NCBI GenBank assembly: GCA_002689655.1
Contig: NZHC01000070.1
Location: 7,272 to 71,271 of the forward strand
DNA: 64,000 nucleotides
Direction of reading: 5' to 3'
Source of the DNA: Rhodopirellula sp.
GTDB lineage: Bacteria; Planctomycetota; Planctomycetia; Pirellulales; Pirellulaceae
The position numbers and the translations under genes were made by a program. Of the stretch, positions 3,990 to 6,398 are shown piece after piece. Each line of letters begins with the position of its first letter. Position 1 is the stretch's first letter. The notes below the pieces were generated by a model. It saw only the letters and a program-made list of their open reading frames with translations, was not told where the DNA came from and searched no databases.

Positions 3990-6398
3990 CTATTTTTTCT
4001 TGCCACCCGGGCGTTTTCGCTTGCTCGGTTTTTCGAAGGTTGGCTCTGGTTTGGCCATTTGGCTTCGAATCCGCTCAGCCAAGGACTGGGACTTCACCGG
4101 AGCGGTGGTAGCACCACCTTCCAATCCAGCCAGATCAAAGTGCTTTTTGCTTGGCAGCGTCCGTTTGACTATGATTCGCTCGCAAATTCCCCAGGCACTA
4201 CTGGTGATAAAATAGATACAAAGTCCTGCTGGAACCCGGAAGAAAAACAAGCCCATCATCAGCGTCATCACGCTCATCATTTTCTGAGTGAGTGCTGTTT
4301 GCTCATCAGTGGCAGGGGGCATGAACAGTTTTTGCTGTATCAGGTAAAGTACCACGACGATCACCGGCAGCACATTAAAGTACGGTCCAAGCCAGCCAAT
4401 CCCCCGACCCGACAAGTAGTCCCACAACCAATCTCCCCAATAAGCAAGCTTGTCAGGTCCAGCAAGGTTTGATGCCCAATCGGTGAAACTCAACGCGGGC
4501 TGCTGCCTCATTTCAATATTTACAGAAAGTGTCCGATAAAGCCCGAGAAAGATCGGGAGTTGAATGAACATCGGCAGGCACCCGGCCAACGGATTGAGCC
4601 CCACTCGTTGCTGCAGTTCCCTTTGAGCCTTGACTTTCCCCTCCATGTCATCCTTGTACTTCTCATTGATCTTTTTCATCTCCGGTGCCAACTCCTGCAT
4701 TCGTTGCGCGTTGACAGCGGCTTTTCTGCTCAAGGGGAACATACACCCACGAACAATTAAGGTAAGCAGGATGATCGCGAGCGCGTAATTCCCAACGGCT
4801 GACAAGCCGTGTAGCAGACTACCCAAGAACTTTGCAATCGCTGAAAACCAACCGTAATAGATGCAATCCTGCAATCCATACTGAGTTAGCAGGGAAGTGT
4901 ATTTCGGACCTGCAAACAGCCTCAGGTCCTGCCGCATGAACTCACCGGGTTCCAACGAGCGACTTAGCGTATCCACATAGTAGGTTGAATTTACCGCGCG
5001 TTCCTGATGCCTGATGATTGCCGCAGGATCCGAAGCGATACCCGCTCCACCCCGCTCAAGTGTCGTCAGTGACGCTTGCCCTTCGGCGGGTACAAACGCG
5101 ACCGTGAAATACTGAGAATCAACACCGACATAACTCAAGTCTCGACTGGCATCAGCACCATCATCGGCAAAAAGCAGTGGAGTCATACCATAACGTGGCA
5201 ATGCCGGATCCGCGTTGCTTTTGTCCTCGGCTTTTGCAGCCTTAAGTAATTCAAAACCACTGACGAGCACGTGACCAGAGGATTTGGTTTTGTAAACGAG
5301 GTCACGAGCGGCTGCGCCGCCCCAATTCGGACTGATCTTCGTGCTGTACCACCAACCCTCGAGGCTGATTCCATTCGCGCCTTCAAGCCTGACACCAATG
5401 TCCTGCTTGGTTGTTCCCACATTTTCAACCTGAACGCCTAAATCCAACGCATAAGATGTCTCGGGTAGCTGATAACTTCGGGTGATCCGCAATGCATCTC
5501 CACCCACCACAGCCATCTCTTTCTGGCTGAGATCGACAGAAAAGGAAGCCGCTCCCGATTCTCTGACCACATCCCAGTTCAGCTGTGTGGGATCTGTCAG
5601 GCCACGCATCGCAACATTGCTATCGCCAATTCGCGTTTGGTTCACTTTGGCCAAGGTCAACAAGCAAGACAATCTCGTCAGGTTGCCCTTGATCTGGTCC
5701 GGTCCTCCGTCTCTTGCAAGACGCATCAGGTCAAGCGGGTGCTCACTCAATTCCGCAGCAAGGGTTTCCGTCTTTTCGGACCGCGTCACCTCGACATCAA
5801 CCTTCTGCCCCGGCCTGGTCTTCGATAGGCTCGTTAACAGAGCCTCGCGAGATACAACTGCTTCCCCTTCGATGCCAACGATAATATCACCGACTTGAAT
5901 ACCGGCAGCGGCGGCTGGCGTTCCAGGACCGACAACATTCACCAAGACACCATCGGTGTCTACTAAATCAGTACCAGCAAAATAACCTAGGTAGCCACTG
6001 GTTACATCAACGCGACGATACTTGAGTGCACCACTACGATCGCGTTCGGTAAGCTCCAATCGCTCGATGCCAGCACCTTTGCTGCACAAAGTCACCAACA
6101 TAAAATAGTCATCCGTGGCATCCATGGATCCGACGGTCAGCCATTCAGTGTTTTGCGGTCGCTTGATTTCAGGCGTCGACGCGGTGACATCATCCCCAGC
6201 CGGCAGTTCACCCGCCGGACTCTCGAGTGCTAAGGGATCCGCACCACCCACAACCGGTGCTTGCAGATCATCAGCAGGCACCTCTGCAATGACAGGATCG
6301 GGCTTAACCGGCGGAACACCCAACCAGGATCGGAGGGTGATATAGGCGAAGAAGAACACCGATGAAGCGACGATGAACGTGATCAGACGACGTTCCAC
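3990..6398 (-). CDS. yidC: membrane protein insertase YidC with an inserted PDZ domain
   Basis: YidC inserts and folds inner-membrane proteins, alone or with SecYEG. The N-terminal membrane anchor (ITFIVASSVFFFAYITL) is followed by a proline-rich linker and the periplasmic beta domain. The C-terminal insertase core carries the conserved membrane Arg in TLIVRGCMFPLS, the amphipathic coiled segment (LAPEMKKINEKYKDDMEGK), LNPLAGCLPMFIQLPIFLGLY, and a basic tail ending KRKRPGGKKK that can contact ribosomes. At 802 residues it is much longer than the usual 540-560. Part of the excess is a PDZ-like module at about residues 135-217 (GYLGYF, VVGPGTPAAAAGIQVGDIIVGIEG, LSKTRPGQKVDVEVTR). The start is GTG at 6398 with GGGA upstream. 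It is convergent with rrf2. Confidence 0.95.
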   Translation of the reverse strand: MERRLITFIVASSVFFFAYITLRSWLGVPPVKPDPVIAEVPADDLQAPVVGGADPLALESPAGELPAGDDVTASTPEIKRPQNTEWLTVGSMDATDDYFMLVTLCSKGAGIERLELTERDRSGALKYRRVDVTSGYLGYFAGTDLVDTDGVLVNVVGPGTPAAAAGIQVGDIIVGIEGEAVVSREALLTSLSKTRPGQKVDVEVTRSEKTETLAAELSEHPLDLMRLARDGGPDQIKGNLTRLSCLLTLAKVNQTRIGDSNVAMRGLTDPTQLNWDVVRESGAASFSVDLSQKEMAVVGGDALRITRSYQLPETSYALDLGVQVENVGTTKQDIGVRLEGANGISLEGWWYSTKISPNWGGAAARDLVYKTKSSGHVLVSGFELLKAAKAEDKSNADPALPRYGMTPLLFADDGADASRDLSYVGVDSQYFTVAFVPAEGQASLTTLERGGAGIASDPAAIIRHQERAVNSTYYVDTLSRSLEPGEFMRQDLRLFAGPKYTSLLTQYGLQDCIYYGWFSAIAKFLGSLLHGLSAVGNYALAIILLTLIVRGCMFPLSRKAAVNAQRMQELAPEMKKINEKYKDDMEGKVKAQRELQQRVGLNPLAGCLPMFIQLPIFLGLYRTLSVNIEMRQQPALSFTDWASNLAGPDKLAYWGDWLWDYLSGRGIGWLGPYFNVLPVIVVVLYLIQQKLFMPPATDEQTALTQKMMSVMTLMMGLFFFRVPAGLCIYFITSSAWGICERIIVKRTLPSKKHFDLAGLEGGATTAPVKSQSLAERIRSQMAKPEPTFEKPSKRKRPGGKKK

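Follow-up and report, generated by a model that had tools for sequence, protein, structure and literature searches.

Background

YidC is a near-universal membrane insertase, and the function of its periplasmic region, P1, is unsettled. The YidC of Escherichia coli (structures 3wvf, 6al2 and 3blc) has an N-terminal helix, a P1 beta-supersandwich and an insertase core, and the same three parts are found in a YidC encoded in a 64,000-nucleotide stretch of DNA from Rhodopirellula sp. (assembly GCA_002689655.1, contig NZHC01000070.1, positions 7,272 to 71,271; called 'the window' below). The window yidC (3990..6398, minus strand, as are all features given here; 802 amino acids, GTG start, stop codon included) is unlike that of E. 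coli in having a PDZ domain of about 86 residues in a hairpin loop of P1. Among described PDZ domains, those of the HtrA proteases DegS, AlgW and DegQ share with it the fold and the ligand loop (GYIG or GYLG); the window domain, in contrast, is carried by an insertase lacking a protease domain (no trypsin family occurred among the six Pfam matches at E up to 1 in the window YidC), and a nine-residue stretch that follows the ligand loop of DegS is missing from it.

The available text of Muley et al. 2019 (PMC6411480) distinguishes 12 families of prokaryotic PDZ proteins, none of them a YidC, and leaves about 7% of PDZ proteins unclassified; like the protein treated here, these are bacterial PDZ proteins, with many copies in planctomycetes. 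A term search of the main text of a 2025 YidC review (PMC7618853) returned neither PDZ nor planctomycetes. No description of a PDZ-bearing YidC was found in the literature searched, which lay outside subscription papers, and InterPro-type databases may show the architecture without comment. An earlier note, made from the window sequence by itself, knew of no YidC with such a module that was characterised. This needs qualifying for the YidC of Rhodopirellula baltica (L183), which has the same PDZ insertion and of which, to our knowledge, only the C-terminal tail has been tested. By the account of citing papers, this ribosome-binding tail was assayed in E. coli by Seitl et al. 2014 (cited in PMC10741985, PMC8595059 and PMC4660199).

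The PDZ domain of YidC and its place within P1

The earlier note had read residues of about 135-217 as a PDZ domain lying in the periplasmic region of a YidC that is complete in other respects. Searches with hidden Markov models bore this out, the segment being matched by Pfam PDZ_2 (residues 147-216, E 6e-14), PDZ_6 (153-206, 4e-9) and PDZ (148-204, 1.6e-6), and by the NCBIfam DegP/HtrA and DegS models within residues 141-220. The motif GYLGYF occupies residues 135-140 and the stretch VGPGTPAAAAGIQVGDIIVGIEG residues 156-178. An AlphaFold2 model of the window YidC, set beforehand as the test that could refute the assignment, was built on an alignment of 46 members of the order Pirellulales; the mean predicted local distance difference test (pLDDT) score was 82.4 and the predicted template modelling score 0.78 for the whole protein, with mean pLDDT of 91-97 per 10-residue block over residues 131-220. 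In this model the PDZ fold is separate from the P1 supersandwich: residues 133-223 aligned with the PDZ domain of DegS (3gdv_C) at Z 15.9 and a root-mean-square deviation of 1.2 over 90 residues (VIA-align), and residues 82-516 with P1 of E. coli YidC (3blc_B, Z 21.1, deviation 2.7, 245 residues; 3bs6_B, Z 21.1). The top Foldseek matches were to E. coli YidC (6al2, E 2.1e-24), and peptide-bound DegS chains were significant too. Since P1 and PDZ were matched separately in one model, the PDZ (residues ~133-218; 5745..6002) is predicted to form a separate domain inside a complete P1 (residues 82-516, interrupted by the PDZ; 4851..6155); the limits first proposed were right within a few residues. 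The 60KD_IMP insertase core (residues 538-746; 4161..4787) is also intact (Pfam E 1.7e-46, 158.6 bits where the cut-off is 35; TIGR03592 E 2.4e-54), and the best stretch for Pfam YidC_periplas was 420-525 (E 9.6e-14). A control model of a PDZ-less relative (L061) gave the same P1 and YidC matching (3bs6_B, Z 21.7; 3wvf_A, Z 25.9), and no PDZ chain occurred among the 50 structure matches listed for it, an observation of absence only.

The insertion site was located in an alignment of the 46 order sequences with 40 YidCs of other class members, 35 (of 70) of other phylum members, and E. coli YidC. The PDZ domain sits in a P1 hairpin loop, between a strand that ends in RYRDLEDRS and one reading RPLEVIRPE (order consensus), the proline of the latter being P221, which is invariant in the order. 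At this site the other aligned YidCs have a short loop, such as RYTTLDRKQPLKVV or, in E. coli, AYPKELNSTQPFQLLE; the gap fraction in the PDZ columns drops to 0.53-0.97 at places (mainly 166-170 and 194-198), reflecting stray alignment of other loops. With the predicted structure, this confirms the segment as a genuine PDZ domain, cleanly inserted in the P1 hairpin loop. Three other accounts of the segment were rejected: an ordinary P1 supersandwich, by the separate PDZ fold and the complete P1 of the model; a chance motif, by the Pfam matches and order-wide conservation; and a recent compositional import, by GC contents of 0.535 in the PDZ segment versus 0.528 in the gene (third positions 0.488 versus 0.554).

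Other additions to P1 were seen in single proteins. In L075, a YidC of the class from outside the order, a long unrelated insert occupies the same part of P1 (252 residues versus 103-162 in the other 39). EF-hand models matched one of the 40 class YidCs, and P1 may be prone to insertions. In the 906-residue YidC L110 (genome G045), a second, weak PDZ-like stretch was found in P1 downstream of the first with our own PDZ profile (independent E-value 0.037); it is possibly a duplicated PDZ domain, Pfam recognising one PDZ stretch only.

Distribution across planctomycetes

YidC was present in 59 of the 60 genomes of relatives. The alignment used above comprised 46 of 50 order loci (the window sequence standing for L001), the N-terminally short L011, L012, L020 and L026 being left out. 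At E <= 0.01, Pfam PDZ_2 matched 45 of these 46 YidCs, and none of the 40 from elsewhere in the class or the 70 from elsewhere in the phylum, so that the survey of planctomycete YidCs foreseen in the earlier note returned the same insert order-wide; a class-wide or phylum-wide PDZ was rejected for the samples taken. A PDZ profile of our own, built from the order rows, run at full sensitivity and therefore partly circular for the order, placed a PDZ in the same frame as the core in 47 of the 50 order loci (0/40 class, 0/70 phylum), the other three being short frames beside contig ends. The short L020 still carries the PDZ by this profile.

A wider scan used a profile of the P1 strand plus the PDZ on 247 order genomes (112 genera) and 40 class controls. 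A score better than 1.6e-22, the best of the controls, was reached by 234 of the 247, counted by the best E-value per genome, with the best match seen to be YidC among the matches listed; genome G410 (1.4e-22) barely passed. The listed matches of the class controls begin at profile position 18 or later. Among the 13 lower-scoring order genomes, 8 had a detectable YidC, all 8 bearing the PDZ, often split by extra linkers, and 5 had none; the locus L319 starts inside the PDZ. Loss of the PDZ within the order was considered and rejected, since every low-scoring genome with a detectable YidC keeps it: no PDZ-less orthologue was found in the order, and no loss in the 242 informative genomes (234 from the profile scan, 8 inspected individually). 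The genome samples overlap, some of the named loci below probably recur in them, and the samples are not independent.

Named loci, and the only look outside the phylum, came from a scan with one pattern, which returned at least 80 loci. Among the matches listed (80 loci, as for all named loci below), 62 have insertase core and PDZ in one frame, one (L217) is broken between core and PDZ, five end before the core, and 12 encode PDZ proteins without an insertase core in the locus; of these loci L246 runs to the contig end, beyond which a core could lie. The 68 YidC loci are all titled as planctomycetes except two titled 'bacterium' (L199 and L210), and named carriers include Rhodopirellula baltica (also strain BR-MGV; L183), Blastopirellula marina DSM 3645, Bythopirellula polymerisocia and metagenome-assembled genomes (MAGs) of Pirellulales. 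No PDZ-bearing YidC outside the phylum was seen among the matches listed of this one pattern scan. Within the samples taken, the PDZ in YidC is thus order-wide and order-specific.

Two observations concern YidC itself in the order. The MAG G371 has a second, short YidC-like frame without P1 and PDZ (L353, on G371:C62), possibly a contaminant contig or a paralogue. No 60KD_IMP gene was detectable in six order genomes (G035, G324, G326, G412, G419 and G456), five of them at least 89% complete, which probably reflects assembly gaps.

Origin of the insertion

A YidC tree calculated without the PDZ columns (59 rows: 26 of the 46 order sequences, 20 of the 40 from the class, 12 of the 35 aligned phylum rows (of 70), plus the E. 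coli sequence; the search was a quick one and the branches are long) placed the PDZ-bearing YidCs on one side of one branch (Shimodaira-Hasegawa-like approximate likelihood ratio test 95), one change being needed. This tree and the shared insertion site make a single early gain in the order ancestor, kept since, the simplest reading. A tree of the PDZ domains alone (36 rows, 90 columns), badly resolved and with long branches, failed to unite the YidC PDZs and required three changes; one starred branch (96/89) groups three YidC PDZs with PDZs of HtrA and M28 proteins. When the YidC PDZs were held as one clade the likelihood was higher than that of the free tree, and by the approximately unbiased test (p-AU 0.60) one clade was not rejected, so that the PDZ by itself speaks neither for nor against a single origin.

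In a search of its own genome the YidC PDZ had 16 other matches besides YidC. Of the seven proteins scanned, two combine a PDZ with an M28 peptidase and four with a trypsin-like protease, and one has a PDZ only; the best match was the PDZ of an M28 peptidase (L162; 39% over 70 residues). When 21 non-YidC PDZ domains were scored with the YidC-PDZ profile, the top two were M28 peptidase PDZs from the same bacteria, L162 (73 bits) and L199 (67 bits), followed by DegQ (54) and DegS (51), and the other M28-PDZ domains scored below L162 and L199. These domains are unlike that of YidC in being attached to a peptidase, and the similarity offers a lead, at the level of sequence, to an M28 peptidase as the PDZ donor.

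Ligand loop and candidate ligands

The motif G-X-X-G before strand beta-B is the carboxylate-binding loop of PDZ domains. In the window YidC it reads GYLG (residues 135-138; 5985..5996), and this is the most conserved of the 78 four-residue stretches of the PDZ domain (3.65 bits over 46 order members), with G135 and Y136 each present in 45 of 46 and G138 in all 46 order YidCs. It lies in register with GYIG (257-260) of DegS in an alignment with 30 of 89 positions identical. Because the ligand loop is the most conserved stretch, the YidC PDZ has probably retained peptide binding; with its register against DegS, the suggestion in the earlier note that substrates are recognised through their C-termini is plausible. 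The other side of a PDZ groove is formed by helix alpha-B, assigned here to residues 184-192 (5823..5849) from DSSP on the model; in the order alignment it is variable except for L187 and L191. According to the available text of PMC8545111, the C-terminus of the peptide bound by AlgW touches W281, L282 and V284, and the cleavage rate falls when any of these is replaced by alanine; the three residues would correspond to Y136, L137 and Y139 of the window YidC.

Candidate tails were compared between order and class genomes. SecG frames were usable in 25 of 30 genomes (16/16 order, 9/14 class; L260, L261, L267, L274 and L277 are frames of differing length), and the order tails are low-complexity and often acidic, none of the 16 having a bulky hydrophobic last residue. 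SecE was usable in 29 of 30 genomes (L301 being in the wrong frame), with no common last residue among the 15 order tails. The canonical last residue of BamA is Phe. In planctomycetes it was Arg in 21 of 25 BamA/Omp85 proteins (14/15 order, 7/10 class; L326-L350), following an aromatic strand, as in FSFYMSLIR. An order-specific tail was found in none of SecG, SecE and BamA.

Possible roles of the PDZ domain

The reading that we prefer, and consider about as likely to be right as wrong, is that the YidC PDZ reads client tails at the Sec-YidC exit. An HtrA/DegS-type PDZ would have been inserted once, in the ancestor of the Pirellulales, into the P1 loop of the housekeeping YidC, and, as the conservation of its loop suggests, would still work as a peptide reader. 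Lying on the periplasmic side of the exit, it would transiently grip exposed C-terminal tails or tail-like strands, presumably those of newly translocated or inserted proteins, and this grip might add a holding or triage step to the chaperone role of YidC. The proposal that C-termini of newly translocated clients are captured and the clients sorted (held, folded or handed over), which would be a client-recognition step unknown to us in any other YidC, is more tentative and somewhat less than an even prospect. The near-invariant carboxylate loop together with the variable alpha-B wall would suit many, or lineage-varying, tails more than a single unchanging partner, and P1 of E. coli is said, in the available text of PMC7618853, to contact chains emerging from SecYEG.

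Several results weigh against the reading of client tails, beside the failure of the PDZ-only tree to recover a single clade. The second-best four-residue stretch of the domain (159-162, 3.56 bits) lies away from the ligand loop; averaged over the PDZ, conservation (1.99 bits) barely exceeds that of P1 219-515 (1.92) and is below that of P1 86-130 (2.52) and of the insertase core (3.13); and GYLG is replaced by GSLG in L120 and by AYVG in L005. SecG, SecE and BamA tails supplied no ligand candidate, binding being predicted from structure model and conservation, and BamA ended in Phe in 0 of 25 genomes, so that a DegS-like YxF tail of outer membrane proteins is unsupported, at least from BamA. 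Moreover, E. coli YidC remains functional after a large P1 deletion, as stated in the available text of PMC7618853, and an insertion into P1 could therefore have little effect.

PDZ domains are often docking modules. The YidC PDZ might accordingly dock one fixed partner through the C-terminus of that partner (SecDF, a periplasmic chaperone, or an HtrA or M28-PDZ protease), forming an order-specific holotranslocon. We regard this as rather unlikely, although the near-invariance of GYLG would suit it, as would, in the available text of the sources, the binding of E. coli P1 to SecF at 215-265 (PMC7618853) and of SurA to the SecYEG-SecDF-YidC complex (PMC9987972). The variation of the alpha-B groove wall argues against one partner, and so do the lack of bulky hydrophobic SecG ends (16 order proteins) and of a shared last SecE residue (15 order proteins). 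Gene order speaks on both sides, and lends faint support to the earlier suggestion of coupling to a periplasmic protease or chaperone: among the matches listed, the gene next but one downstream of yidC encodes a PDZ-bearing M28 peptidase at 4 loci (L199, L208, L220 and L235) of the 44 with at least 3.5 kb downstream, whereas the commoner neighbours, mnmE and a calcineurin-like phosphoesterase gene, encode neither protease nor chaperone. These four peptidases have one or two PDZ domains and lie about 1.5 kb downstream of yidC; each is a possible donor or partner of the YidC PDZ.

It is distinctly improbable that the PDZ is a structural insert that stiffens or spaces P1 and has lost peptide binding. 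The tolerated P1 deletion in E. coli and the closeness of PDZ and P1 219-515 in conservation, both below the core, are what such an insert would lead one to expect; a spacer would have no use for the ligand loop, yet no other part of the domain is so well conserved, and the 242 order genomes with evidence include no loss. That the segment is ordinary P1 merely resembling a PDZ, or an assembly or gene-fusion artefact, had nothing in its favour and is scarcely credible given the separate PDZ fold beside a complete P1, the PDZ-less control model and the recurrence of the architecture in many separate assemblies, including those of R. baltica BR-MGV and B. marina DSM 3645.

If clients are read by their tails, the membrane insertase itself would have become a reader of periplasmic protein tails in the Pirellulales. 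The PDZ in YidC suggests that the insertase of this order can recognise the tails of proteins in the periplasm, joining in one chain insertion and PDZ-based recognition, which normally reside on separate proteins, and its order-wide presence, without any observed loss, suggests that in one lineage P1 came under selection as a site of protein interaction. The four-residue loop is a natural handle for testing what P1 sees; since E. coli YidC carrying the R. baltica YidC tail has been made before (cited in PMC4660199, by its available text), such tests are feasible.

Other features of the window YidC and its gene neighbourhood

The source genome (7.1 Mb, 99.95% complete) contained a single 60KD_IMP match, and the window gene is therefore taken as the housekeeping YidC, with no paralogue. 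Membrane insertion activity is predicted from family membership (60KD_IMP and P1). Within the first core helix, R550 in VRGCMFPLSRK is invariant across the 46 order YidCs, and we take it to be the groove arginine (motif VRG..P; R366 in E. coli). Residues 1-26 (6321..6398), with a helix at 2-26 in the AlphaFold2 model, presumably form the first transmembrane segment, as family knowledge would have it. The C-terminal tail (residues 747-802; 3993..4160) is basic, with 14 Lys and Arg versus 5 Asp and Glu, and by analogy with the R. baltica tail, as cited in the available text of PMC4660199, may bind ribosomes.

Among the 68 named YidC loci listed, the same-strand upstream gene belongs to one cluster at 50 loci, the six members scanned all being calcineurin-like phosphoesterases. 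The same-strand downstream gene belongs to one cluster at 38 of the 53 loci with at least 600 bases downstream; the one member scanned was MnmE, and mnmE also lies downstream of yidC in E. coli. The window yidC, unlike that of E. coli, is not followed by mnmE, and both neighbours usual in its named relatives are lacking. Upstream of it lies a DUF7133/HEAT/cytochrome c gene, as in R. baltica (L183), and beyond its 3' end are convergent Rrf2 and 3'-phosphoadenosine 5'-phosphosulfate (PAPS) reductase genes.

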